Below, in pieces: positions 1 through 17,407 of a stretch of DNA of 18,763 bases. The position numbers and the translations under genes are program-made. The notes below the pieces were generated by a model that had not been told where the DNA came from, searched no databases, and saw only the letters and a list, made by a program, of their open reading frames with translations. Each line of letters starts with the position of its first letter. Position 1 is the first letter of the stretch. The stretch is from Discostella pseudostelligera (lineage: Eukaryota; Bacillariophyta; Thalassiosirophyceae; Thalassiosirales; Thalassiosiraceae): assembly GCA_036940085.1 (NCBI GenBank), contig JALLBK010000210.1, forward strand, positions 1 through 18,763. The letters run 5' to 3'.

Positions 1-449
1 GAACCTGCCGATGGACTCCCCACAACTAAAACTGACATTCCCATCCGTGCCGCAAAGAGAGCAGATGTTAGGCCCGTGGGGCCACAGCCGACAACAATCA
101 CATCGAATCGGTGAGTTGATGATTGAAGTTCATTGAGATTTACATATTTTATAGGACGAGTCTCTCGTCGGTGATAAAGCGCACTGGCTTGATGATGAAG
201 CCATAGTGACTTTTGTTGCCTTCCAAGTAGTAATTGATCAGATGAACCCAAATTCACCATAATAAACAACCAAACCGCAACGATGAAGAGCAGCGACGAG
301 AGAAGTATTCTTGCACCAAAGCCAAAGCTGGCATCTATTATGTTGCTGCTCTTTGCGGATTCAAGAATGCCTTTTGATTTAGATAATGAAAGCCGCGCTT
401 GCTCATGATATCCATTGCTTCGCCTCCTCAGATCGGTGGGGCATGTCAT
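1..449 (-). CDS. Membrane-anchored FAD/NAD(P)-binding oxidoreductase, N-terminal part, runs off left edge
   Basis: An open minus-strand frame from ATG 449 to the window edge gives about 150 residues without a stop. Residues 1-45 are basic and Ser-rich. Residues roughly 46-68 form one hydrophobic helix (LLFIVAVWLFIMV), which looks like a signal anchor. After a linker of about 45 residues comes FDVIVVGCGPTG (residues 115-126), a GxGxxG dinucleotide-binding fold start, followed by LTSALFAARMGMSVLVVG, a typical first beta-alpha-beta unit ending in the strand that contacts the ribose. This resembles thioredoxin-reductase-like and related class II flavoproteins, but the catalytic part lies outside the window, so substrate and exact family are unknown. 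An in-frame ATG at 467 would add six residues (MHHDHD). I see no intron in the visible part. It shares a short divergent promoter with the lipase at 753. The fold call is solid; the function is open. Confidence 0.72.
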   Translation of the reverse strand, partial: MTCPTDLRRRSNGYHEQARLSLSKSKGILESAKSSNIIDASFGFGARILLSSLLFIVAVWLFIMVNLGSSDQLLLGRQQKSLWLHHQASALYHRRETRPIKYVNLNELQSSTHRFDVIVVGCGPTGLTSALFAARMGMSVLVVGSPSAG

Positions 450-467
450 GTCATGGTCATGGTGCAT

Positions 468-752
468 GGTGCATGGTGCATTGCAAATAATAATGAGTAA
501 AGATGGCCGAAAAATGGCGGGAAGAAAGATTTTCTAGAGGTATTGGCGGGAATGTTCCCGCAAGATATCTGCGTGCATAGATCTAGAGGCAAAGAATTGC
601 GGGAAGCTTCCCGCTGAAACTCTATTGCGTGTTGGTAGGTCACTCTCGCCTCTCGGGATGCGGGATGAGAGGGTGGACGGACGACGTCCGACGTCTCCGC
701 CAGAACCAAAGACAAAAGTAGATAGGGCGAGGTAATAGTGATAGAAACGACG
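468..752. promoter_or_regulatory. Bidirectional promoter with clustered E2F-like palindromes
   Basis: These 285 bp separate two divergent genes and must hold both promoters. They contain GGCGGGAA at 516-523, GCGGGAA-TG-TTCCCGC at 546-561 and GCGGGAA-GC-TTCCCGC at 599-614. TTCCCGC matches the core of the E2F/DP consensus (TTSSCGC). Each palindrome is preceded by TCTAGAGG (533-540 and 582-589), so the block looks like a diverged tandem duplication. The flank near 455-480 is a short CATGGTG-type repeat. I see no clear TATA box. E2F control, and hence S-phase expression of one or both genes, is an inference. Confidence 0.6.
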
Positions 753-3298
753 ATGGCGCTGCCGCCGATGCTTATCATTGTCACCCTGTTGGCATCGTTC
801 GGCAATGCCAGATACGGTGGGCTCTACCCCGGCTCTGCCTTTGTCCATCCTACATTGAGAAATGTTCCACTGGTCGGATGTCGAAGACATCGTCGCGTCA
901 CTGCAAATAAATTTTCAAGTGATGATGACAATACCGAGCAGGAATCAAGAGGCGGTCAAGACTTCCCAGCGTGGCTTAAGGCCTTGCTTAAGTGGGATAC
1001 ATCGGACCAATCGCCTTCACCTTCACCATCGGCCACCATTGAACAAGATGAAGTTGGTGGGGGTAGTCCACTCGACATACTGAAATTTGCCGTGGGCGGC
1101 AACAGACGGAGTGCAACTATCCAAAATGGGTGGGAGGATGAGATGTCCCCAGTGGTTGCCTCCCTATCGGGTATGATTAATGTAGAAGCATTGATGGCAG
1201 CTGCGAATGAAACAGATGAGGGGATGGATTTATTGCTTCCCAACATGAATGATCTAAAAACAGCAATAGATATATCTGACGCAAATGGTACTGTGGCCGA
1301 GGAGGAGGCATCATCCACAGCAACACTTTTTCCCTTCCTGGACAATGCACTAAGATGGGAAGATTTTGCCAAGAATTTTCAACAGTTAAGTGATCTAGTA
1401 TTGGATGACAACAAGGGAATGAATGTTACCTTTGAAGAGCTAGTCAATATGGTGCCGAACGATGAATTGGTTATTAATGATGAAGCGATTGGATCGGCTT
1501 CATCATCAATACTCAAAGACGCTACAAAGAGGTTGGAGTTCCTAATCAACGCGACAAGTTCTGTCTTTACTCCATCCGCATTTCAGTCTTTGATTCTTCG
1601 TGCGAGCAATGCCTTGGCAATCCAAGAGGCATCTGGGAACCTTACTTCGGCTGCATATGCAATCTTCGAACAAGCAGGGAAGGCGCCCATCGCAACGGCA
1701 GAATACACAGCTGAACTAGTGAAATTTGCAAATGCAGTGCTCGTTGGTGGATATGCACCGCTGTTTAGCAACTACCCATCGGCGACAAGTATACCGATTG
1801 AAGAGCAGCAACAGAAAGTAATTAAAGGTGCTGAATTCGCGACGCTGTCGGGTGCTATCTATGAAAATACTATCCTCAAAACTCACATTGTCGAGCATTC
1901 TATCCTTGCGCAAGGGAAAACTGCTGATATTGGATGGATGGTAACGGATAGTATTCAATATGAAGAAGATTTTTGGCCAGACGGCAGTGGTCCAACTTTA
2001 GTCCGCACCTTCGTGATACGAGGCTATGATGCGAGCGACGAAGAGGTCGACAGAGAGGGCCTTTTGAACAATGTATGCACAGCATCTCCAGTTGTTTTGC
2101 AACAAAATGATATGAGTTTGATCAAGGTTCACAAAGGGATGCTCGCGATGGCGGAAAAACTTTTGCAGGAACTGCAGAGTTACATTGATCTGACTTCACC
2201 ATCGCACAAATTTGTGTTTACTGGGTGAGCAATTGTCAAGATCATTAGATACGGAAATGCAAACATTATTTCGCTAATCAACGTTCTCAATCTATTCCTC
2301 ACATTTTAAAATGCACCAGTCACTCCATTGGAGGGTCACTTGCAATATTGCTATCTATCCTCTTGGCCAATGACCGCGGAAGTGATTTTGTGGTGAGAAG
2401 TTATGGTGCACATTATTATTTACCCGTGAATGAGATGCTTGTTCTCATAATGCTTTGTTCATCGATTCAGAGGCGAAGAGTTCTTCGGGTCTTCACATAC
2501 GGTTCTCCTCCCATCTTTGAGATAGAATCCATCTCAAAAGTGAAAGTTAATTCCATTGGAGGCAGTAATGCTTGTCCGGTTCTTGATGCATTTGATTTAC
2601 CAACTGACTTTGTCTATTCATATAACCAGCCATGGGATCCGATCGTACGCTTGTTTTCACAGTACGATCCTTTGTATCCTCTCATTGATGATCTTGGTGA
2701 GCAAAATGATTACCTATTCATCTGTAATGACCGCAGTGATTTGATTCAATTTCTTGATTACTCATCACAAAATTTGCATTAATTGGTAGGAGAAGACGGA
2801 TACACACCTTGGGTCTCTGGTCCCAGTAGAACACTGAGGCCAATACTCAAAACAATTCTAGAATCATGGGAAGGATGGTAAGCCTTTCTATCTGCTGATG
2901 CATAATGCAGAAGGTGCTTTCTGATTGTCAACGTTTCTAATATCATCTGATGAACAATATTTCATGATTGATTGACGCTTAGGCCGCGATTTAGAGCCAA
3001 TGCTCGGGGAATCGGACAAAACTATAGAAGTGTCGGTGTACAATATCTTCTACTGCCCGATCCAGCCCGATACTTGACGGATCGGCTAGTCTCTGTCAAT
3101 ACGCAGGTTCCCGAAATCGACACAATCATACAAATTTCTTCGAATGAGGTACTTCCTGCTTTGAACGACGTGTTCACGCTGGATACTTTCACAATCAGTT
3201 ATGTTTCCGTGGCGGTACGAAGTTTCATCCATCATTTCTACCCTGCCTATGGGGCGCCAGTTGTTGATTATGCAGAAAAAATATCGCCAGAAGAATAA
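753..3298 (+). CDS. Class 3 (fungal-type) lipase, five exons, predicted plastid-targeted
   Basis: Proposed exons are 753-2224, 2320-2392, 2471-2696, 2790-2877 and 2983-3298, giving 724 residues. All introns are GT-AG (95, 78, 93 and 105 nt). Splicing intron 1 rebuilds the nucleophile elbow GHSIGG (Ser about 493) after VHKGMLAMAEKL, as in class 3 lipases. Further signatures are FTYGSPPI (about 523-530), YNQPWDPIV with the likely acid Asp571, and SFIHHFYPAYG with the likely His703 or 704. The family hydrolyses ester bonds of acylglycerols or galactolipids; the substrate here is not known. The N-terminus has a hydrophobic core (MLIIVTLLASF) and then GSAFVHP, close to the ASAF motif of diatom plastid preproteins. 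About 400 residues before the catalytic domain are variable and acidic. I start at ATG 753 because the in-frame GTG at 738 is not a usual nuclear start. It resembles plastid lipases of plants (PLIP type), but the comparison is from memory. Confidence 0.85.
2393..2470 (+). other. Lipase intron 2: 78 nt, in frame, no stop
   Basis: This segment begins GTGAGAAG and ends TTCAG. It is a multiple of three, lies in phase 0 and has no stop in the reading frame, so an unspliced message would add 26 residues just after the nucleophile elbow, between SDFV and RRRVLRVFTYG. Removing it gives the continuous helix-strand join expected in class 3 lipases, so I treat it as an intron. Confidence 0.75.
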
Positions 3299-3516: not shown

Positions 3517-5274
3517 TTAAGACATCTCCCCACCCGAATAATCCGTATCAACGTGCCTCTTCCTTGAGGCCGCCTTGCAGCTGCGTCCAACACCCACAGC
3601 AATTAGAAGAACGGCAAGGACTGCAATGACAATACCAACAATAGCACCCGCCGACAATCCTTCCTTTTGTTGCGACTTTCCAGAAACAATGTTTCCAGAC
3701 CTGTCACGAGTGTACCAGCTGCCAGAGCTCTCCTGATCGTAAGCGTGAGAATAGTCGCCCGCTTGCTTTTGCTTCAGCATTTGACAAACGTCGGCGGCGT
3801 CATCGGCTTCTTCCATGTCGTAGGTGTACCAATTGTAGTTCGCGGCGTTTTCATTCTGGTTCTGCTGATCGTCCTGGTTGTCGGCGCCACAGTTTGCGAA
3901 GCTAACAGCATTCTCTTCAAGGACACCCTGGCAATAGTCGTTCATTTCGTTGTTCGCATCGTCTTCCTCCTCTTGTTCGCCATCTTCGTTGACATTAGCG
4001 AACTGAAGTTGAGCGCAGGGTGTGATCTCGCTGAAGGCAGACTTGATGAAATCCTCAGCGTACATGAGGTAGTTAATAGCATTCCCATCACCGTTGGCAT
4101 CACCGTCGGCATTGGCATTGAAAGAGTACACATCCGCAAATGCATACTGGTTGGTGTACCATGTACAATCTTCATTGGCAAAGACGGCAAGTTCGACACC
4201 ATCTCCGTAGGAATCACACATGGCACCAACGTAGAGGTTCATGACGTTGTCCCACATTTTACCAGTCTCCTGACATTCGGCAAGGTTGCCAATCCATTGC
4301 GAAACTTCCTCGTCGAGGTTCTCGTTGCGTTCGACTTTATCGTCGAGGTCCTCCTCGTTGACGTAGCACTCGTAGGCGGCGCATTGGTTACAGTCGATGG
4401 CGTTGGCAAGCTTTCGTTCAAAGAGCTTACGGCCGGCTGATGACGGAATGAGAATTACGAGGAGTGTGTGGAATTACATGTGTTGGGTTGAAAGTGGAAT
4501 GATTGTATTGTAGATAACCTGAGCACGATAATAATATAACGCACCTCCCTCTTGGGCATCTGCTTCTTCGCCTTCCTCTGGTTCTCCTTCTGTGGTCATA
4601 ATATTAGCATTGAATTTTAGGTACAAGCCGAGGTACAGATCCATTATTTGCTAGTCAATAAAATTCCACTCACCTTCGCCCTCTCCCTCTTGTTCAGGAT
4701 TCTCCTCTTCGGCAGCAGCATCTTCTTCCTCAGCAGCCGCCTCCTCCTCCTGCTGGGGGTTGCAATAGTCCTCAAACTCCTGGCACTGCTCGCAATAATC
4801 CGTTCGTTTGTTGGCATAATACTGAGCAATGTTTACCAAGTACGTGGACAAATCGACGAGGTACAAATCATCCTCACTCTCGAGGTAGCAAGAGTCCTTT
4901 TGGCAGACGTGGAAAAGGACGTAGCTCTTAGCAGCGACAATCTGACCATTCTTGACGTAGTTGATAATGTTCTCATCGAAGAGATCTTCATCGTAGAGCT
5001 TGACATCCATACACTCGGAGAATTGGATGTAGTAGCTGCCGTCGATGTTGTTGTTGTCCTCCAACCGACGTGGAGTCACCGCACTGTTGTTGCTGACGCC
5101 GCTACGTTTGTAGGGGATAGCCTTCTTGAGTAGAGACTCGGTGGCCGGATCGCCACGGCGGAGGTTGCGGTTGCCAAGCTTAATGTTCTTTTTGACGACG
5201 GCGGGGGAGGAGGCCGAAGCGGCACCGATGGTGGCGGCAGAGGCAGCCAACGCGAGGAAGGAGAATTTCACCAT
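3517..5274 (-). CDS. Secreted type I membrane protein, two Cys-rich domains, RXL sites (paralog A)
   Basis: Exons on the minus strand are 5274-4674, 4589-4545 and 4436-3517, with GT-AG introns of 84 and 108 nt, giving 521 residues. Layout: signal peptide (1-22); pro-segment; RRL at 69-71; first domain with six Cys (72-168), including SYVLFHVCQKDSC; a Glu-rich linker (about 170-216) spanning the tiny second exon; two RKL sites (218-220 and 223-225); a second domain with ten Cys, including AVFANEDCTWY; an Asn/Gln-rich patch; one membrane helix (about 477-499); and a 22-residue basic tail ending DYSGGEMS. RXL is the proteolytic site described in diatom silica-associated proproteins. The build matches SDV membrane proteins in outline, but I cannot claim homology to silicanins or SAPs. 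It seems to belong to a broad diatom family of unknown function. Its paralog lies at 15803-17407. Confidence 0.85.
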
Positions 5275-6857
5275 GATTGTTCTATTCTATTATCGATGAT
5301 CGTTCCGATAGGATGGGGTGGATAGACGCCGAGCGAGGTGCTGATATTGGTTTGGGATGAATTGATTCGGCGTTGCTGCAGATTTTGGAACTCCAAATCC
5401 AATGAAAGAGGGGTTGGATTCGTTTTGCCGCCCCCAACTTTCCGACCAAATCGCTGCAGTGGTAGTACCCCCTACAGATTCCTCACGTAGACATCGAATT
5501 CCCATGCCTTTCTTGTTCTCCAAGCCACAAGGGGGCAATGAGTCTTCATCGCAGAAAATAACTGACGGATTCTTTCTCGAGAAGAAGGCTTTTCTTGCAG
5601 TTCTGGAGAGAAAAATTGCGGGGGCTGGCGCGTCGGCGAACAATGTCTCGCCAAAGGACGCAGTTTGGTGTGACGGACAGAAGAGAGAAATCCAGAGAGC
5701 AAGAAAGAGCGAAGAAGAAAGACAGAGAAAATGTATGAATTCCCGCGTGAAAATTACTTCCACCCGTCCCATTTTTTGAAGCATCGCGCCATTTCATGTA
5801 CTGGATCCCAGCGTATGTTCATCCATTTGAGGAGCAACAAAATCAAAGCAACTGATGATCCAACAAGCAAGGTCCAGCAAAAAAGCGCGAGGACGAGTTG
5901 AAAAAATGTGAGGTGCCACTTCTTCACCCGCCTGCATTCAAGCAAGAGCTCTTGCTTTTGTGTGGTTCCTCCTTCGTGACTTTTTTGAAGTTGGTGGATG
6001 TGGACGCACTTCTTTGTTCGAGACAAGAAATCCCATGTGGTGTTGCGATCGCGGGTTGTTTGTTGGAGTTTGAGAGATCGATCTTTGCCCTGCTTGCTTG
6101 TTGCTTGGACTCTCACCTTCGAATTTGAACATGATTACTCAAAAGCTTTTGTGCGATGATCTCTTCCCCGTGCAAAAAATTCTTGTCGACGAAGCATTCC
6201 ACCTGCTGATGAGCCCTACGCCAACAGCACCGATACGATCCATACCGCAGCGCCTCAGCACCCATCGACACCGAATACCATTGAGCCCATCCAACGCTAC
6301 GGTGGAAGGCTCGAACAAGAGGCGCGGTTACTAGAACTACCGGCACTTGAACTGTCACCCAATTCATTTGGCTGTGATAGCCGGGTAGTACTGACATTCG
6401 TGGCCGCTACTCAGGTACGATAAGGTCCACCTGATGAAAATGACGGGGTTTTCAATTTTTCCATGGCATTGCATCTACTGGTGGCGGCAATGATATGACA
6501 CCTATGCGAGCAGCGGCGGGGGATCGGCGTTGGGGTGGGGACAACCACTCTCCGCCGGAGCTGGTGCTGCGGCGTTCCGCTGATGGTGATGGTGGTGGTG
6601 CTGCTGGTCGAACGGGGGGGGGGCTAGAGTGCCACGATCTCGATTGTCAGCATTGCCGATCCGATGAGCTACATTACCCCTTTCCCATCTGTTTGTCTGT
6701 TTTGCCGCCGCCCTTCGTGCTCGATTATGTTCGGGGAGATGACACATTAATTTCAAAGCATTGTCGCTCATGTTCTCGTTCGCATTATCATTATTTTCCA
6801 TTCTCAATAATAATTTCAAAGTGAAAGTCCAGACAATTGCATTAAACAACAGTGCAG
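5275..6857. other. 1.6-kb divergent intergenic region without a supportable gene
   Basis: The region lies between two genes that point away from each other. It holds several short overlapping ORFs on both strands with no conserved motif, mostly lacking an ATG. Visible elements are one TTCCCGC (5740-5746, E2F-like core), a small dyad TTTGGA-AC-TCCAAA near 5384-5397, a GA-rich stretch around 5680-5730, and a G-rich segment at 6515-6630 with a ten-G run and GGT repeats. Long 5' UTRs with introns are possible but not visible. Confidence 0.5.
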
Positions 6858-9800
6858 ATGGACTATTCCGACAGCGAAAGTTATGACTCCGATTCGTATG
6901 GGGCAGCACCGCATGCCCAGGCTAGTATGGGCGACAACAACATCATGACCACGGGGAACAGTCACGGTTATCATCCACAACACTCCAGTGACGAAGATAA
7001 CTACAGAGTTGATGACGATTCCAGTGAGGCCCGCTCGGTAGGCTCCGCTTCCAGCCGAGATGGTGCTTCGTCCAACGAGGAAGATAATGATGACGATGAA
7101 CCACCCACAGCAGTGGCTGCACCAGTTCAACCGCGGGGCAAAACATTCCGCCCTCCTGTGGGTGTGGGCGATGGGAATTCGAGCAGCAGCGAAGAGGAGG
7201 ACAATGCAAAGCCACCCGCTAGTCATACTGCAACTGCTACTGCTCAGGTGATTAATCCAAATCCTGGACCGAGGGGAAAAGAATTACGTCTCATTATGAA
7301 TAAGGAACCGACTAAAACAGGCACGAGATCGAAATCTTCTCGAGCAACTAAAGGCAATGCAGCAAAGAAAGTAGCAGCCAAGGCCACCACCACCACCACC
7401 AGCAACAAGAAGCGCAAGACACCTCCTGCCAACCATGACAGTGACTCTGGCTCCGACGACGACGATAACGCTTGCATCGCCACCATTGTTGGGGGGAGCG
7501 ATACCGAAGAAGTTATGGCCGTGGCAACAAACATCAGTAGCAGTACCAAGAGAATGAAGGGCAATAATGGATCTGCTGTAAAGAAGACTGCACCGAAAAA
7601 GGCTTCTGTGAAGAAAGGTGGTGCCGGATCCAATGCAAAGGCCAAGCCGAAGTCGACAGGGGTAAAGAAGTCACCTCCCACCACCAGCGCTTCCTCCGTC
7701 CAATATCGAATGCCGGTAATATCTGCTGAGAAAGCCGCAGCCGCACACGAGGCCCGGACCACCCTACAAGGGACCGTGTCGACTCTGCCATATAGGGTTA
7801 CTGACACGCATATCATCCGAAGCTTTGGCAGGATCAAGCCCGAATACAACACCACACCTTTGGACGCACAGTATTCCAGTCCTCACGCGATATACCCCGT
7901 GGGATTCTCGTATGATAGATTCGAGTTTAGCCCAATCCATGGTCGTGTTATCAAGATGCGTTGCGATATCCTGGATGGGAGCAGCTTGCGAGAGTATCGA
8001 GAGGAACGAATGAGGAAACTAAAAGCAGGAAAGTCGAAATCGGATAAGAGTAGCGAGCCATCCTTGGTGGACGAGAGGCTGTCGAGCGAGAATGGCACTG
8101 ACTTTGGAGATGGACCCGTCTTTCGTGTCACGTGGGGTGAGGGTGTGGAAGAGGACAAGATATTGGAGAAACCGTGTCCGTTTGATCCATACCTTGCGTC
8201 TGCTCACTTAGGGGGAGACGTCGATGCCATCGCTGTTCCTTTATCGTCAAAGAAGGGCAGTAAGCCAGTGGGACTACCAGAAGTTGGTATGAGGGTCAGC
8301 GTTCGATTTGACAAATGCAAATTGTACTGGGGCACCATTACCCACGTCAAGCCACTTGGGAGCCAAGCCAAGAACAAGAAGGCGGTATGCAATATTGCTA
8401 TACAATATGATGACGGGGTAACTGAGATTGCTGCTTTTCCTGATCCTGATATTATCTTGGCCTACCAAGGTGAGTCAAATGGCATATGGCAGTTTCCGTG
8501 TTTGTTAATTTCCAAGATAATATTATTGACTCGAATTTCCCTGTAATCATTATTTCCCCAGGATTTCCACCTGTCGAGACTGTGGACGGCTATGTGACAG
8601 AAATGAATGGCAAGCCAGTGCGGTCGGTGTTGGCGAAATCTCCTATCGAAGCTTGGGGAAAGACTCTACTCTCACTCGGGCTCATTGATGAAGTCATATA
8701 CGATGTGGCGCTGAATTCGCTACTCACTTCGCGCGATGCAGGATTCGATGACAAATACAAAATCAATATGGCCAATAAGAAACGCAGCGACGACAAAGGG
8801 AAAGAGACAGTGTTTCATCTAAACGATGTAGATGGCGATGTCCTGAAGAGCGAAGGCATGGCAAGTGGTGATCGCATGGATACCGATACTAAGGAACGAG
8901 CAGATGTATCGCAAGAGGAGTTGCATCTTCGGAAGCAGTTGAGGGAAATGCACGAGAAGCTTGACATCTCCAAGAGGCGATCAAAGCTTGCGTCGATGTC
9001 TCTTGCTAACGCGCGAATTGCTACCATATCACCATTTGCAGCAAATCCCTTCGTTTGTCGCGAAGATTCAGCCTCGTTAGAATCATCATGGTTGGCCGCC
9101 GCTATCAAGAGAGAAAAAGCGAAAATGGGCAACACTGGAAACAAGCGGAAAATTGTTACTCCAGCTACAATTATGGAGAAAAACGATACATTCTTCGTTG
9201 ATAAGATCGAGCGCCTTGTGGAGGGCCTGCCAGGAAGTGAATTCGCTCCTTCATATGTATTCCATGCCAACCGATCGTCGTCAAAAGGCAACCAGGCATG
9301 GATTCAAGAAGCGAAGATTCGCCATCAAAGGCGCCAGCAAAAGGAGCAAAAAGAGCAGGAGAAGTCAATTAAGATGTCGAAGCAAGGCCATGCCAAAGCG
9401 AAGGCTGAGGAACAGAAGGTACGCATTTCTAGGTTTGTTGTTTTATGCTACAATAGATCGCTGCTGAATTGAACCAACTGTTGTTGCTCGGATCAGGTAT
9501 TGAAACGGAAAATTCAGGAAGTAGCAGCAGCCGACAAGAAAAGACTTAAATCTGAAGAGGAGGAGCAGAAACGAAGGGAGCGAATAAACAAGAGATTGTT
9601 GCTGCTGAATACTCAAATGGAAGAACGTCTGTCCAAGGAGGCGAGTATGATGAGAGAAAAGAGTATAACGAATCTAGTGAGGGCGATGAGCAAGGAATTT
9701 GTCAGGCGCCGCAAGGCTGCAGAGCTGATTGTGGGCAACAATCTTGATCGTTTATCGTCGTCGTCGACTTCCATGAACTCGTCATCCAACGTTCTAGTTC

Positions 9801-12800
9801 CCTTCAATCAAATGCTTCCTCCGATTTCACGCGTTCACAACTTTGAAGTTGTTAAGCTTTGGGACTTCCTTCACTCGTTTTCAAATATTTTCTCCTTGTC
9901 GACCACACAAGTATCTCCATCCACATTGGACGATCTGCAAGATGCTTTCAATTGTTTACACACAAATGGATGTGATAAACAAATGCGCGCTAATGCAGTT
10001 CAGATGTTTACTGGAATCGCCATCGATCTTTGTAAAGTTATATCCCCTGGGTGAGTGTTCTTATGAGAATATTGTATTATGATCATGGACGTTGCACTCA
10101 TTTCTTATGCTGACATCTCTTTTTGTATCTACCAGCCTGACGAAATCCCTTTCGTCATCGACCCAGAACGTTGACGTTGTTGGCAAAAATGGCACTGACG
10201 GTGGACCGCAAGGAGATGCAGACGTCTCTTGTTTACCTGTAACCGAATGGAGTTGGCGAGAAATTGCTAGGATGGTAATTATCAACGATATCTTGACAGA
10301 CCTTGGCTTCTCTAAGCAGGAAGCCGCCAATTTAGTGAAAGGATATCGCAGCGGCGGACACCCAAACTCAAAAGAAGCTAAAAGGTGGAAAAAGATAGAA
10401 GAGTCCCCTGTGGCCATGATGTATCAAATTATTCTTGATGGTGACGCTTCCAATCAGTTTCGACGGCGAGTTATGAGAGCAACTCTAAGCACACCTTGCG
10501 CACCTTCATCTGTGCCCTCAGATTGGCGGTTTTTCCTTCACAACATCAAGTCTCGGTCCTCGACTCCATTGCCATACGTCAAGGACAATGTAGCAAAATC
10601 CCTGGTCGTTTTGAAACAAAATTTTTCTGACGATCAACAGGCACAATCACACGTCGAAAGCCTTGAATCTTGTCTGGCCATGTTGGAGTGTGAGAATGGC
10701 ACCGTAAGTACCCCTGAACTACACAAAGCGAAGCAACTTGCAATCAGCGTACTGGATTCATCTAGGGATACTCGAGCACCTCCGTCCTTCCATTGTAACC
10801 CGACTGATTCAACCCAAGAACCTGCCAGACAAAAGATGGGTTATCAGAAAATGTTCCAAATGTCAAGAGAGAAATTCAAAGCGTTAGAACAGTCTAAGGA
10901 AGAATACATGGCAGCTGCACTGAGGCTTAAAGAGGAACTCGAATTTAAGACCAGAGAAGGCGATGATGAAGATGACGAGGACGAGGACGAGGACGAAGAA
11001 GTGGAGGATTTTGCAGGAGAAACGGATGCTGACATTGATGTTTTAGATAGAGATTCTTCACCTCCAATTGACTCTGTGGACAATAGAGAGTCCACGCAGG
11101 GTGAGAGTAAAGGAGCTGCTAATGACAATCCAGGAGAATCAGAAGCTGACAAGGAAGTTACAGAGAGAGAATCTGCACTTTCATCTGACTCTTCGAACAA
11201 AAGGGACTTTGAGGACGAGGAGAAGAGTAGATGTTCTACTCTTGAATCTTCAGAAAAGATCGAGCGTGATGGAGCTGGCAATGTAGTGCAGGATTTAGAA
11301 GCTGATGCATCAATAGGTCCATCCACTGTTGAAGAAGCCTCCAACACAACTGGACATCCTACGGTGAGCGAAAAAGATTCACACCTCCCTACCGAACCTG
11401 CTGAAGATTTCCCGGATGGATGGGAGGTTCGCCGGATTCCAAGGCTTAATCCTACTGACAAACGAACTGATCGAAATTGGTATTCTCCGAAGCTGGGTCT
11501 GAAATTCAGAGCAAAATCTGACGCTTTGCGCTTCCTTGGACTTGTGGAAGCTGCCAACGGGGACGAGGCGGCTGCAATAATGGAGTTTCATGGAAAAAAT
11601 ACCAACGGGGCTGCTTCCAAAGTTGGGAATAAGCCTGCAAGTACTGTAGCAAGTACGGAGGATAGCAAAGCTGGCAGCAATAAAGCTGAATATGAATTTT
11701 GCGAAGACGATCCTCTTGCCCCGGATATCATCCGCCGATGTCTAGCAGTGATACGTTCACTTTGTGGAACAAACTCAGCTGAACAATTTATCTATCCCGT
11801 GGATCCGCAACTTTACCCAGGGTGAGTTTGATGATCAACTTTTTATTTGACTTGTGCCAACCTACGACTTATCACCCAATCCTTAATGGCAGCTACTATG
11901 AATCTGTAATGAATCCATGTTCATTGTATGATGTTGCGAAATTTCTTCAAGATGCCGGGCAGAAGTTCTCCTCTGATCATACCGACCCTGAGATAGAGGA
12001 GGTAGTGGCCGACGTCGGGAGAAAGGTTCGCACCATTGTCCAGAATTCCATCTGCGTCATGTCCTCCAACAATATCGTCAATTCCGCGGAAGAAATGCTG
12101 AGAATATTCGAGCGCTTATTTTTTGATTGGGTACTTGCGCCTTCGAAAGATAGACCTCAACTTGAAGATTTGGATGATGACATGTGCATTGACCACCACG
12201 AGAGTGATTTGCACTCCATGGTACTCCTTTGCGATGCGTGCGAGGGCAAGTACAATATGAGTCGGCTCAAGCCTGAATTAGATCACGTTCCTGATGGCGA
12301 CTGGTACTGTCCGCGATGCGTGGCAGGAAGGAGTTGGCTGACAGCGGATCCGCGCATTGGAAGACAAGTCCAGAATGAATCATTTTCTGGAATTGTCCAA
12401 TCATGTAAATTCCTTTTTACGGATGTCGGGAATCTCTCGATATTATATCGCCTAAAATCAATCAACTCTGGCCGAATCGAGTACTGGGGAGTAGAGGATG
12501 TCGATAAATCAATGTTGGGCGATCCAGTGGAGCCCATTCGCTGTCTGACGGCTCTATCAGAAAGCCCTGGTTATGGGTTTGGCCGGGATTTTAGTATTTT
12601 GGGGGGTGCCATTCCACTTGCCATTAATCCTCTCGTCGGGGACAAGGCGGCCCAAGCTGCTCTCTCAAATGTGGTTTTCAAGGATACAGTTTCTGCATGT
12701 GTTTCTCTGACTCACCCGCCAGAAGATTACTCGTCAGAAGAATGGATTACTATTCTATTGCTACTTGTCTCAAAATGTTCACAATCGGATGAACTCCAAG

Positions 12801-15304
12801 ATATTTCAAGTAAGCTCGAAAGTAAGGTAGCGGCTTCCCTCTCGACTAACATGATGACGTTCTGGAGGGCTAGGGCTGCAAAAAATATTGTTCCGAATGT
12901 TTCTGATGATGATTCGGTTTCGTCAGAAGAGTCGGAGCCGTGCGACGCTCCTGCTGATGTCCCTTCGGCTATCGAGAAGACGATCGAGTTCCCCACAAAA
13001 ACCGAATCACCTTCGACGGATATCGCTGTTAAATCCTCCGGAGAAGAAGAAGTCATTGCCGAGAATCGTCCTACCGATGCTACTGATATGGATATCAGTT
13101 TCAATAGTTCCCTTGAAGGACCTGATGAAGTCAGCAGCAATACTGTTGTGAACGCCTCCGTTCAACCCTCCAACGAAGAAGCCAGCAGTAATACTGCTGC
13201 GAACACCACCATGCAACCCCCTAACGACGTCATTCTGACAGAAGAAGAGATAATGCGAAGAAAGCGCGAGTCCAGCATCCTTGCTAAGTCCAAACGCGAG
13301 AGAAAAAGGGAGGAGGCATTGATAGGGTATTTTATTGGGACCCGATTAAAGTCAACTGCTGCGTCATTTGAAGAGGATTTCCTTTCAACCATAGTTAAGT
13401 CCACCCTCTGTAACCAAGAGGAAGGTCTTGACTTCTCTGCGGTTCGCTGTCGAGAGACGTGTCATTATTGCGGGCTTTCAGATGTCGCTCTTGGTGCCCC
13501 TCTTTGCCGCACTCCAGATGAAAGCGAGTGGAGAGAAATGTTTCCATATGCGTTGCATGGTAGAAACACTTTCATGATAGCTCAAGTTCCCGACAACGAC
13601 GGCGAAACTATTTCAGTTGAGCATGAGAATCGAGAGAACCAGTCGGCTGATGTCCTCTCGACAGAGCCAGCTACCAAAGTTAAGGTGTTCACCGTTCGAG
13701 TCCGTGTAGGTGGGGTTCTTGTCTCGTCGAGGCTCAAGAGTGACGACAGTGCCAAGAACTCCGACTCCGTCATGCAGCAGGTAAGCTCGCAAACACCATG
13801 GTATTGTTCATGATAAGTCAACTTGCCAATGACGATCCTTATTTATATTCCTCTTCGGAGCAGTTTCTACCAAGAAATCCTATTGGATTCCAATCGGAGC
13901 TTAAGTTTCGCCACCAATCGAGCTTAACCATCTTAACTGGATCCCTTTCTGCTCATGAAGTGTGCGCAATCGCTGCACACCGGAGTCTGAAGGACAAACT
14001 GCTTGCTGAGCGTCGAAATTTTTACCGATCAAACCTGACACGAGAAGCAGCACTAACTTGTGGGAAGTCTACTCCTATTGGAACCGACCCCTTTGGGAGA
14101 TCGTATTGGGTTTTCAGTGCCGATCCTACATCTCTCTTTGTGTGTGAAATGAATTCAACTCCTGATGCCGCATCTCCCACACTCAAGCGGCTACATAGAT
14201 TCCACAAGCCAGAAGAAATTGCATCCGTTATTGTATGCCTGGGCAGAGATCCATTATGTGAAACATTAAAAGAGATTTTCCCTGAAGCGACAAAGGTTGT
14301 TAACGATAGGTCTTGGTCTACTTTGTTGATGGAAAGGAGTTTGCGTCGTGACCCAGAAGCGACGGAGGCATTACCTATCTCGGACGAGACTAAGGTTGTC
14401 GAAGAAGAGCAAACTGATTTCGGTGCAGTGAGTGCAATAATATTTTTGTCTACCGTATCTCTGAAACACACGAATGCTAATCCTATCCATTTCGTCTTTT
14501 CAATGAAGCCATTTGTTGAAGACGAAGATGTTCTTGTCGAGTCAGCAAACGGCAAATTTCTTTGGGACGCTGTAATTGTTGATGTGTCTAAAGACCCCGA
14601 GACGGCGAAAGTTTATGAATACCTTGTCCACTACAAGAATTGGAGCAGCAGATTTGATCAATGGGTTGTGCCCGAACGGGTTGTCGAACCGAGCAAAGTC
14701 AATTTGGAGGTGCAGGTAAGAAGTCAGCTGTGCATATGTTCCAGGATATCTTAATTCGTTGCACATCTCTGATACCTATTGAACTCTCCATCCTGTTCCG
14801 CAGGAGGAAGTCATTCAAGACTTCACTTCCGCAAATGACGTCGCTCCTCCAGAGTTGGAGTGCATGTTTGCGTATAAGTTCTTGAATGCGAAGAAACGTG
14901 CTAGATCCACCCCTGTCTCAAAAGCGGAACTATTTGAGTGTTCTTTTACAAGGCCATCTGCATCTCACGACGAGAAGCTTCTTGGTTTGTTGAAAGGGGC
15001 CATACTACTCATTGAAGCAGCACTCCCTCGGGGCTCTGTCAATGGAGTATGGAATCCTCAGGCAGCTGCATTGTGGCGCAATTTTGTCAAGGATGCACAA
15101 GGTCCGGAGTCTCTGATGAAGTGCGTTCTCTTGCTAGAAAACGCTATTTCCCCTTTTTGGCTCCACTCTCAGGCCACTCAACTGTACTCATCCATTCCTA
15201 CGCAGTGGAGAGCCATGGGCGAGGCATCTTTATCAGCAATTGCTCTTCGGGTTGGAATTCTTGACCGGTGTTTGAAGTATCAGCAAAAAAAGAAGCAACC
15301 CTAG
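6858..15304 (+). CDS. Giant multi-reader chromatin scaffold (FYRN-Tudor-DDT-MBD-bromo-PHD-WSD-chromo barrel), BAZ/ACF1-like
   Basis: Exons are 6858-8469, 8562-9418, 9497-10050, 10136-11821, 11893-13780, 13864-14427, 14509-14715 and 14804-15304; the seven GT-AG introns are 71-92 nt; the product is about 2,622 residues. Segments in order: acidic/basic disordered N-terminus; FYRN-like (about 315-440: YPVGFSYDRF, GPVFRVTW) split by a basic insert; Tudor-like (474-537: VGMRVSVRFD, YWGTITHV); FYRC-like (about 540-600: SPIEAWGKTLLSLGL); long basic coiled coil (660-880); DDT (about 935-1006: VVKLWDFLHSFSNIF); WHIM1-like (about 1043-1090: TEWSWREIARMV); acidic repeats; MBD-like (1431-1495: FPDGWEVRRIP, NWYSPKLGLKFRAKS); bromodomain (1537-1650); PHD-like (1666-1712: LLCDACEGKY, DGDWYCPRC); second WHIM-like helix (about 1845); Cys cluster (2089-2108); WSD (about 2269: TPIGTDPFGRSYWVF); chromo barrel (2389-2456: FLWDAVIV, VHYKNWSSRFDQWV); helical C-terminus. 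DDT-WHIM-WSD proteins bind ISWI ATPases, so a nuclear remodeller subunit is the likely role. Start is ATG 6858; the GTG at 6852 is ignored. Confidence 0.85.
11016..11210 (+). repeat. Diverged acidic 26-residue repeat, two units
   Basis: Units at 11016-11093 and 11133-11210 start 117 nt apart and encode aligned 26-residue stretches of the form GE-x2-AD-x2-V-x2-R-x-S-x4-DS-x3-R. I count ten identities and about seven conservative changes. They lie in the acidic linker between the WHIM-like segment and the MBD-like domain of the chromatin protein. The linker also has an uninterrupted Asp/Glu run just upstream (around 10960-11010). Confidence 0.65.
13131..13232 (+). repeat. 51-bp tandem repeat, two units, in the chromatin gene
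   Basis: Units at 13131-13181 and 13182-13232 abut directly. They encode 17 residues each, VSSNTVVNASVQPSNEE and ASSNTAANTTMQPPNDV. The repeat keeps the frame and sits in a disordered Ser/Thr-rich linker before a basic coil. A recent in-frame duplication is the simplest reading. Confidence 0.8.
14428..14508 (+). other. Chromatin-gene intron 6: 81 nt, in frame, no stop
   Basis: It starts GTGAGTGC and ends in a pyrimidine-rich tract with CAATGAAG. It is phase 0, a multiple of three, and open. Retention would insert a hydrophobic 27-residue segment directly before the chromo-barrel strand PFVEDEDVLV. The strong donor and the odd inserted composition favour splicing. Confidence 0.75.
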
Positions 15305-15802
15305 AGCTGCATAGATACATAACCTACATAAATTACAGAAATCCGTTCGATTAAAGAAAATAGGCAGTTGATGCAGTGTAGATGGCGGTGTTCGAGCTGA
15401 TCGTAGATCGTTGATATCAAGATTGGAAGGCCACCGGCGGTGGATCTGTACAATTCCATTTTCCATTTGCCCAAACCGTCTCCCGAACCCATCCTTTTTT
15501 CGACCTTTTTGATTCTCTTGGGAGAAAGTGGTCCGTTTAGCCTCACACGTAGGAATTCGCTGACGAATTTCCGTTCGGAGAGATATTTTCTCTCCAAATT
15601 TCGGATTTGAGAGAAACGTACCAAAATTAAGAAAAATGCCGTCCGTTCCTCCTTCGTGGAAACGGACAAGAACACGCCACCGAATTCCCCAACACCAACA
15701 CCGCCACCATGACGACAAAGACGATAAAATATTATGGCAGGCAGGATACGGCACATTTTTTCAATAGGGTCAATGTAATTCAACCAACAACCATCATCCA
15801 CC
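15305..15802. promoter_or_regulatory. Intergenic region: chromatin-gene 3' end and paralog B promoter
   Basis: These 498 bp hold the 3' UTR of the chromatin gene and the upstream region of paralog B. Two adjacent dyads stand out: GGAATTCG-CTGA-CGAATTTCC (15552-15572) and GGAGAG-ATATTTT-CTCTCC (15577-15595). A TATA-like ATAAAAT lies at about 15724-15730, some 75 bp before the ATG. Minus-strand ORFs of 173 and 190 residues overlap here but show no family signature. Confidence 0.45.
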
Positions 15803-17407
15803 ATGAAGGCCAGAACATTATCATCATCATCTTCTGCTACAGCTTTGGCATGCACATTTCTATTCACCACCACACATCATGGCTCAGTATCAGCAAGCGC
15901 AATTCTGGCCGGTGGCAACCGCGAGATTCACCAAGGCGAGATACGAGCGGGGGCAGTCGCCGACGCACTCTTCCGACAGGCTCGTCCATACGAACAAATG
16001 CCTGGCGGTGTAGGAGTCATGAATGATTCCTCCTCCACATCGTCATCCTCTCGTCGTCGTCGCTTGGATGATTTTGAGATCGATGGTTCTTACAATATCA
16101 AGTTCTCCCAATGCGTCGACATAAAATTACGCAACGATGATTTGTTCAATGATGATGCTACTCTTGCTTACACCAAGGCGGGTCAAATTATCTCCACCAA
16201 ATCCTACGTCCTATTTCATGTCTGCCAAAAAGACGATTGTTACTATGAATCGGATGACGATCTCTACATGTTGGACCTACCCACATATGTGAGGAATCTT
16301 GCCTGGTACCATGCCACTGCGAAGAGCACATATTGCGAAGCATGCGACACATATTACGCGGATTATTGCGCCTCCAACCGCAAACTATCTACGACGGCGG
16401 CTACGGAACAGAATCAACGTCGGACATCGAGCTACATTACCTGTGACCAATGTGAAGCCTATGGCTGCGGCAATACCGACGACCAACAGAATAACGATGA
16501 TGAAGGAGATGACACAGTCGTGGAATTGATTAACGACATCTCTGAATGCCTAAACACAGGCCTGAACCTGAATGACAATCCCATGTATGTTGGATTCATG
16601 TGCAGCCCAAATGGTGGGAACGGCGTCGAGCTTGCTATCTTCCTGGATGATCAATGCACAATGTATACGAATATGAAGGCATTCAGCGACATCCCCTCCT
16701 ATTACATTTACAACAGCAATGATATTTTTACCAAGACGGAAACTTACATTAAGAAAGCCTTCACCGACACTACGTCTTGTCTGGAAGCAGAATTTGATGA
16801 TCCCGCTAATCAGAGCAACGGGGATGATGACAATGCCGCTGTAAATAATGGGGGGGAAGTGAACGAATACTGTTCCGGCATCTTCGAGGCAGGAGCACTT
16901 GCGTTTAGTAGCTGTGCTTCAAATAATGACGATCAAAACAATTATGGCAACAACCAAAACGACGATGATAAGTACAGCTTTTACGCATATGACATGAACT
17001 ACGATGGTGACGAAGATCTGAATGAGGTTTGCACTGTCCTTCAACAAATGGAAGGGGCATATACATATCATTATGACTCGACGAACTCCGGATCGTGGTA
17101 CAGTAGCAGCAGCTCGGGAAGTGGAAGCAGTGGAAGTTCCAGTAGCAGTCAGAGTAGTAAGGGAAGTTGGAATTTTTTTAGCCGCGGTGGCAGCAGCAGC
17201 AGTGAAGAAACGAGTGGGGGTTCCAATGCTAGCGCCAGCACTGCGAGCGCCACAGGTGCTGATGTCGTTGCCATTGTGCTCTATGTCTTGCTAAGCTGCG
17301 CCGTTATAATAATGACACTATTCTTTATCGGATGGCATGCGAGGAAGAAGAGGAGGGAGGGAAGAGTGCGAGAAGAGCCTGCTTACATTGGCGGCAGATT
17401 AGTTTGA
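15803..17407 (+). CDS. Secreted type I membrane protein, two Cys-rich domains, RXL sites (paralog B, intronless)
   Basis: A single open frame gives 534 residues. Layout: signal peptide (about 1-32); pro-segment with LFRQARPY, matching LLKKAIPY in paralog A; RRL at 86-88; first domain with six Cys, including SYVLFHVCQKDDC, nearly identical to paralog A; RKL at 193-195; a TCDQCEAYGC cluster; an acidic linker; second domain (FLDDQCTMY); an Asn-rich patch (about 400); SGSWY followed by a long Ser/Gly stretch; one membrane helix (about 488-511); and a basic tail ending AYIGGRLV. All 16 lumenal cysteines align with paralog A, so eight conserved disulfides are plausible. Differences are the lack of introns, a shorter acidic linker and the Ser/Gly stalk. 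The protein probably sits in the plasma membrane or a secretory/silica vesicle membrane with both domains outside the cytosol. Function unknown. Confidence 0.87.
   Translation: MKARTLSSSSSATALACTFLFTTTHHGSVSASAILAGGNREIHQGEIRAGAVADALFRQARPYEQMPGGVGVMNDSSSTSSSSRRRRLDDFEIDGSYNIKFSQCVDIKLRNDDLFNDDATLAYTKAGQIISTKSYVLFHVCQKDDCYYESDDDLYMLDLPTYVRNLAWYHATAKSTYCEACDTYYADYCASNRKLSTTAATEQNQRRTSSYITCDQCEAYGCGNTDDQQNNDDEGDDTVVELINDISECLNTGLNLNDNPMYVGFMCSPNGGNGVELAIFLDDQCTMYTNMKAFSDIPSYYIYNSNDIFTKTETYIKKAFTDTTSCLEAEFDDPANQSNGDDDNAAVNNGGEVNEYCSGIFEAGALAFSSCASNNDDQNNYGNNQNDDDKYSFYAYDMNYDGDEDLNEVCTVLQQMEGAYTYHYDSTNSGSWYSSSSSGSGSSGSSSSSQSSKGSWNFFSRGGSSSSEETSGGSNASASTASATGADVVAIVLYVLLSCAVIIMTLFFIGWHARKKRREGRVREEPAYIGGRLV

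Follow-up and report, generated by a model that had tools for sequence, protein, structure and literature searches.

The diatom Discostella pseudostelligera encodes a large, non-catalytic scaffold protein that is probably the diatom counterpart of the plant chromatin protein MBD9 (methyl-CpG-binding domain protein 9). The gene lies on contig C210 of a 23.0 Mb genome, within the window analysed here, which is the whole stretch of 18,763 nucleotides. By profile comparison, the protein and MBD9 share a core order of FYRN/GPVF, EGLPGSE segment, DDT, LPV block, bromodomain, PHD, WSD and C-terminal domain. Two predicted barrels are added to it: a Tudor-like one that separates the FYRN part from FYRC, and a chromo barrel with cage-type aromatics ahead of the C-terminal domain. 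The PHD and, in most family members, the bromodomain appear from their sequences to lack canonical binding residues. New domain combinations are to be expected in diatoms; among the titles and abstract starts of the literature matches listed, no report of this protein or of a diatom MBD9 counterpart was found.

Domain content and binding pockets

Table 1. Features of the scaffold gene and protein. Positions count from the first nucleotide of the window; bit scores are for the scaffold protein, against the Pfam cut-off; MBD9 matches give residues here, MBD9 residues and the full-length hhalign score of the family profile.
Feature	Residues	Position	Strand	Evidence	MBD9 match
Whole scaffold gene	2,622 aa	6858..15304	+	8 exons	
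Exons		6858-8469, 8562-9418, 9497-10050, 10136-11821, 11893-13780, 13864-14427, 14509-14715, 14804-15304	+		
FYRN	310-373	7785..7976	+	18/24 bits	310-425 to 404-465 (60)
GPVFRVT motif	418-427	8109..8138	+	MBD9 has GPVFKVT likewise after FYRN	
Putative Tudor	470-537	8265..8468	+	five strands in low-confidence model; weak Foldseek E	
SPIEAWGKTLLSLGLIDE piece	548-585	8591..8704	+	conserved in family	
Conserved segment with IERLVEGLPGSE	726-776	9125..9277	+	conservation	753-776 to 678-701 (42)
DDT	941-979	9848..9964	+	28/22 bits	940-970 to 769-795 (31), weak
LPVTEWSWREIAR ... GYRSGGHPNSKEAKR block (LPV block)	1039-1095	10227..10397	+		1039-1058 to 933-952 (51)
MBD-like segment	1434-1476	11412..11540	+	13.1/21 bits; lineage-restricted	
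Bromodomain	1535-1650	11715..12133	+	21.1/21.7 bits; intron inside	1570-1730 to 1176-1360 (133)
Degenerate PHD	1666-1715	12179..12328	+	16.1/24 bits; His to Asn, Cys6 to Arg	in the bromodomain match
Second putative Tudor-like beta segment	1720-1790	12341..12553	+	model strands, conservation	
CxxC segment CHYCGLSD...PLCR	2089-2110	13448..13513	+	conservation	
WSD	2265-2336	14059..14274	+	12.8/25.4 bits	2271-2336 to 1638-1726 (52)
Chromo barrel, MSL3/MRG15 type	2389-2459	14512..14812	+	49/28 bits; Tudor-knot at same place, 26.1/20.8 bits; crosses intron	
C-terminal domain common to MBD9	2506-2617	14951..15286	+		2514-2616 to 2034-2133 (98)

The first-pass annotation of this DNA had joined FYR, Tudor-like, DDT, WHIM, MBD, bromodomain, PHD, WSD and chromo-barrel segments in one protein, and profile searches bear out this set only in part. 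In the scaffold protein itself the chromo barrel and the DDT pass their Pfam cut-offs; the bromodomain, FYRN, PHD, MBD and WSD fall below theirs, and Pfam FYRC gives no match. Among 20 relatives at E<=0.05, the bromodomain and PHD were each found in 20, the MSL3 chromo barrel in 16, FYRN (best E 1.9e-7) and WSD in 14 each, Tudor-knot in 13 and PTM_DIR17_Tudor in two, with DDT in a single relative and MBD in none. Of four proteins scanned against the cut-offs, two exceed that of FYRN, P0028 with 31 bits and P0014 with 24.7, and the latter also passes for MBD (21.3 against 21). The EGLPGSE segment, LPV block and C-terminal domain have no Pfam model at E below 0.1 in the scaffold protein.

Structure was predicted for two stretches of P0001, an annotated Thalassiosira sp. 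relative. The model of the C-terminal half (residues 1636-2716, mean pLDDT 72.5) matches bromodomains and MRG15/MSL3 chromo barrels, which make up most of a fold list that barely covers the PHD, WSD and C-terminal domain. The N-terminal-half model (residues 314-1327) is poor, with a mean pLDDT of 60. In Foldseek its barrel resembles the PHF1/PHF19 Tudor at E near 0.1, among unrelated rows; only Tudor matches were used, none of them at E<=0.001. The rows of a second fold listing for this model, mostly receptors, BRIL fusions and cytochrome b562-type bundles, were discarded. The strands modelled after the PHD suggest that this second segment, too, may be Tudor-like.

Acetyl-lysine-reading bromodomains are described as carrying the asparagine of an NCxxY/FN motif (PMC8638923). 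Met takes its place in the scaffold protein (V-M there), and the canonical position holds Asn in only three of the 59 readable rows among 64 (P0001, P0003 and P0004). Many members have a loop of the form NCxxY(A/T/S)N, with the Asn shifted one place late. Since the canonical Asn is mostly replaced, the proposed acetyl-lysine binding is doubtful. In the first helix of the bromodomain, a strict motif occurs in 35 of 120 MBD9 proteins listed (of 317), and 131 of 136 diatom family proteins have it in a slightly relaxed form, which is no more than suggestive.

The PHD fares similarly as a full reader. Cysteines 1, 3, 4, 7 and 8 are kept in 62 of 62 rows, yet Asn stands for the His in 61 of these rows and Arg for the sixth Cys likewise in 61, so that the family PHD departs from canonical C4HC3 at His5 and Cys6; the Asn/Arg pair recurs in 126 of the 129 readable proteins among 136. 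Between the PHD and the WSD a CxxCGLSD.ALG.PL.R block is conserved, followed, ahead of the WSD, by a conserved HExCA.AAH block; judging from the residues, the CxxC segment, together with this second block, is a possible metal site or zinc module.

The chromo barrel keeps its aromatics. At the positions that we take, after MSL3/MRG15, to form the aromatic cage, Y/F is found in 41 of 43 rows, F/Y in 35 of 38 and W in 35 of 37, incomplete rows included. In these cage-type residues it resembles MRG15 and MSL3, but here the barrel is one module of a 2,622-residue scaffold, and no MRG domain follows it in the Pfam scan of the scaffold protein at E<=10.

The MBD-like segment cannot be counted as a core feature, as had been proposed with a methyl-DNA reader. 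It reaches 18.8 bits in a six-frame search, and is found in the scaffold protein and three Thalassiosira/Skeletonema relatives (P0001, P0014 and P0015) only. Its pattern appears nowhere else among the 136 family proteins, a set that includes truncated sequences, and the alignment shows Cyclotella atomus P0003 to be without it. A comparison with MeCP2 by eye suggests that the scaffold protein retains the Asp and both arginines that contact DNA, whereas it has Asn in place of the Tyr. Against the MBD of MBD9 the match is not significant (P 0.06, with a profile of six rows, four of which contain the segment). Because the genome has four other MBD places over the cut-off, as well as DNA methylases, the segment may have been acquired from within the same genome.

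Comparison with plant MBD9

Arabidopsis MBD9, as described in a review, carries an MBD, a bromodomain, two PHDs, FYRN, FYRC, DDT and WSD, and bridges SWR1 and ISWI (PMC10451976). It co-purifies with ISWI and SWR1 subunits (PMC6659704, PMC10451976), ISWI being enriched with it (PMC6659704), and its MBD, in which key residues are absent, is not a conserved feature of the angiosperm proteins (PMC10451976). In the passages of that review that treat it, an MBD9-type scaffold is reported from plant SWR1 complexes only (PMC10451976). With nearly the same set in the same core order, MBD9 overturns the earlier view that no protein with such a combination was known.

A profile of 33 rows, the scaffold protein and 32 of its 63 relatives, was aligned by hhalign with 20 MBD9 proteins drawn from 120 listed of 317 matches. 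Seven matches preserve the order, with scores from 31 to 133; the bromodomain-PHD stretch has an hhalign probability of 97.8 and the C-terminal domain one of 95.9 at full length. Control alignments of MBD9, one reversed and three shuffled, scored no higher than 26.9. Two off-diagonal matches also exceed these controls, one of the PHD with the first PHD of MBD9 (63) and a short one (33). That all seven run in MBD9 order and exceed the controls points to an MBD9-related scaffold. The scaffold protein alone gives seven in order as well, scoring 35, 26, 24, 34, 106, 35 and 57, two of which are below the control level.

Segment-wise alignments, with segments picked at the expected places and rows covering at least half of each segment, agree with this picture. 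FYRN with GPVF (P 2e-8, probability 95.3), the EGLPGSE segment (P 8e-8), the LPV block (P 4e-8), the PHD (P 9e-20), the WSD against the MBD9 WSD (P 2e-7, probability 93.6) and the C-terminal domain (P 4e-14, probability 98.2) all match. The weak links are the DDT (P 0.0005 segment-wise, 0.09 at full length) and the bromodomain alone (P 0.004).

The comparison also helps to place FYRC. The GPVFRVT motif may be the start of it. The piece at residues 548-585, probably the FYRC-like segment of the first-pass annotation, is not significant against the MBD9 profile (P 0.31). For the end of FYRC, residues 753-776 are the strongest candidate, because the MBD9 stretch that they match overlaps the Pfam FYRC (669-695) of P0066, the Arabidopsis lyrata MBD9; the Tudor and a coiled stretch would then separate the FYRN part from FYRC.

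The likeness to MBD9 thus spans FYRN with GPVF, an EGLPGSE-like FYRC end, the DDT place, an LPV..W.E.AR block, bromodomain-PHD, WSD and C-terminal domain, and extends to the bromodomain loop, where no Asn follows the aromatic in the 75 pattern-readable proteins of 120 MBD9 listed (of 317). There are differences as well. The same Pfam scan finds PHD, MBD, WHIM1, WSD, FYRC, FYRN and a weak bromodomain in P0066, with a clear WHIM1 directly after the PHD; in the diatom family WHIM1 gave no significant match (P 0.06 segment-wise). Unlike MBD9, the scaffold protein shows neither a PHD nor an MBD before its FYRN (there is no Pfam match before residue 310 at E<=10), which is why it is labelled MBD9-related and not MBD9. 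The Tudor and the chromo barrel, neither of which has a segment-wise hhalign match in MBD9, are added, the PHD has lost its His and Cys, and the MBD-like piece, where present, lies elsewhere than the MBD of MBD9.

It is conceivable, if unlikely, that diatoms assembled this scaffold independently and that it resembles MBD9 through common chromatin domains. Such an origin would fit the weak DDT and bromodomain links, the undetected WHIM1, the unmatched Tudor and chromo barrel and the different place of the MBD-like piece. Furthermore, a second DDT/WSD protein of the genome, encoded on contig C85, matches MBD9 in order at the DDT (51), more weakly in the middle (30) and at the WSD (27), with a further match to MBD9 288-310 (37) and two of seven matches out of order, both low (22 and 18). 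As it shows the DDT-WSD order too, that order is not distinctive. Against independent assembly stand seven segments in one order and the match of the EGLPGSE segment, LPV block and C-terminal domain, for which the Pfam scan of the scaffold protein gave nothing at E below 0.1. The C85 protein has no match at the FYR, bromodomain or C-terminal parts of MBD9, and a diatom MLL-like protein matches only its PHD-bearing stretches. What is distinctive of the scaffold protein, on these alignments, are the FYR parts, EGLPGSE segment, LPV block, bromodomain-PHD and C-terminus.

A reshuffled ISWI subunit of the BAZ2/ACF1 type, the frame in which the protein had first been placed, is less likely still. 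The diatom protein does share DDT, WSD, PHD and bromodomain with BAZ2A/BAZ2B (TIP5) and with ACF1/WSTF (BAZ1), and with BAZ2 an MBD-like piece. But BAZ2 proteins have the MBD(TAM) before the DDT and the PHD before the bromodomain, and are not known to carry FYR or the MBD9 C-terminal domain; here the domains start in the order DDT 941, lineage-restricted MBD-like piece 1434, bromodomain 1543 and PHD 1674, and FYRN and the MBD9-type C-terminal domain are present. The domain order of ACF1/WSTF differs as well, and no WAC was found at E<=10. Domain order and the C-terminal domain already disfavour this type. What remains of the original description is a bromodomain ahead of the PHD, and a DDT and WSD accompanied by FYR, Tudor and chromo-barrel modules.

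The gene and its family in diatoms

The introns, 71-92 bases long, are GT-AG throughout, and the reading frame is stop-free over its full length. The gene is single in the genome: a six-frame search with P0001 found 16 places, ten of which are in the scaffold gene, and the other six matched no part of the query except its MBD-like or PHD region. P0001 is 61% identical to the scaffold protein over 96% of the query. A search with the full protein returned 64 proteins, 63 family members and P0064 (44 bits), a large MLL/trithorax-like protein with FYRN, SET, bromodomain and PHD, one PHD-like piece of which also seems by eye to be without its His. Most matches are nameless, and the family members with names are diatoms (Thalassiosira, Cyclotella, Skeletonema and Nitzschia), joined by Amphora, Epithemia, Fragilaria, Mayamaea, Cylindrotheca and Seminavis among the best 120 of 148 matches listed. 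The gene is real and conserved in diatoms, and the multi-domain scaffold first described here stands, on its gene model, on P0001 and on this conservation.

That two adjoining genes were joined by mistake deserves hardly any credence: the model comes from genomic DNA, but P0001 aligns almost throughout, each of the seven exon joins is identical to P0001 at 11-16 of 20 residues (for Cyclotella atomus P0003 the figure falls to 4 of 20 at the second join and at the last), and an ORF listed from MMETSP as a complete transcript (P0220, 2,184 residues) unites chromo barrel, bromodomain, FYRN and WSD, so that an artefactual fusion was rejected.

Possible role and genomic surroundings

As an MBD9-related scaffold, the protein is likely to belong to an ISWI/SWR1-type remodeller, as a subunit for docking and targeting. 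The DDT/WSD part would dock the ISWI ATPase, which is plausible from these domains and the partners reported for MBD9. Further partners, SWR1 in the case of plants, could be held by other core parts, and by analogy the core may link to an SWR1-type complex. The Tudor and chromo barrel would bring the remodeller to nucleosomes marked with methyl-lysine, and the bromodomain and PHD may serve mainly as structural or protein-contact modules. The genome encodes candidate partners, with SLIDE at three places and YL1_C at one. Two further WSD genes are present, one of them with a clear DDT, so the scaffold is not the sole possible ISWI partner; these two could indeed be the main ones. They lie at C85:15089-15487 and C161:42894-43121 (L022 and L023); the DDT of one scores 40.7 bits, and one is near a PWWP-like frame (24.2 against 25.6).

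More tentatively, the MBD9-type scaffold may be a eukaryotic remodeller subunit older than plants. Diatoms would then have kept a core bridging ISWI and SWR1 but changed what it reads: the acetyl-lysine and PHD pockets would have fallen silent, and Tudor and chromo barrel would have come in as readers of methyl-lysine. Some Thalassiosirales would also have gained a new MBD out of the MBD family already in their genomes; we would put the chances of this whole scenario somewhat short of even. If right, a diatom counterpart to the plant SWR1 scaffold implies that the link between ISWI and SWR1 may far predate plants. It would also exemplify a scaffold that kept its docking core and exchanged its reader modules, and offer a candidate ISWI/H2A.Z targeting subunit in a group with members open to genetics.

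The scaffold gene is flanked on both sides by paralogous genes of opposite orientation, at 3520-5286 (-) and 15779-17404 (+), which are 41% identical over 185 residues and 34% over 254 and match no Pfam families. A class-3 lipase-like stretch (Pfam 19.3 against a cut-off of 22) lies at 2249-2779 (+), probably together with the upstream frame 726-2225, for which there is no Pfam match. At 3-533 (-) is the start of an FAD-dependent oxidoreductase, the end of which is matched by several FAD/NAD-binding families.
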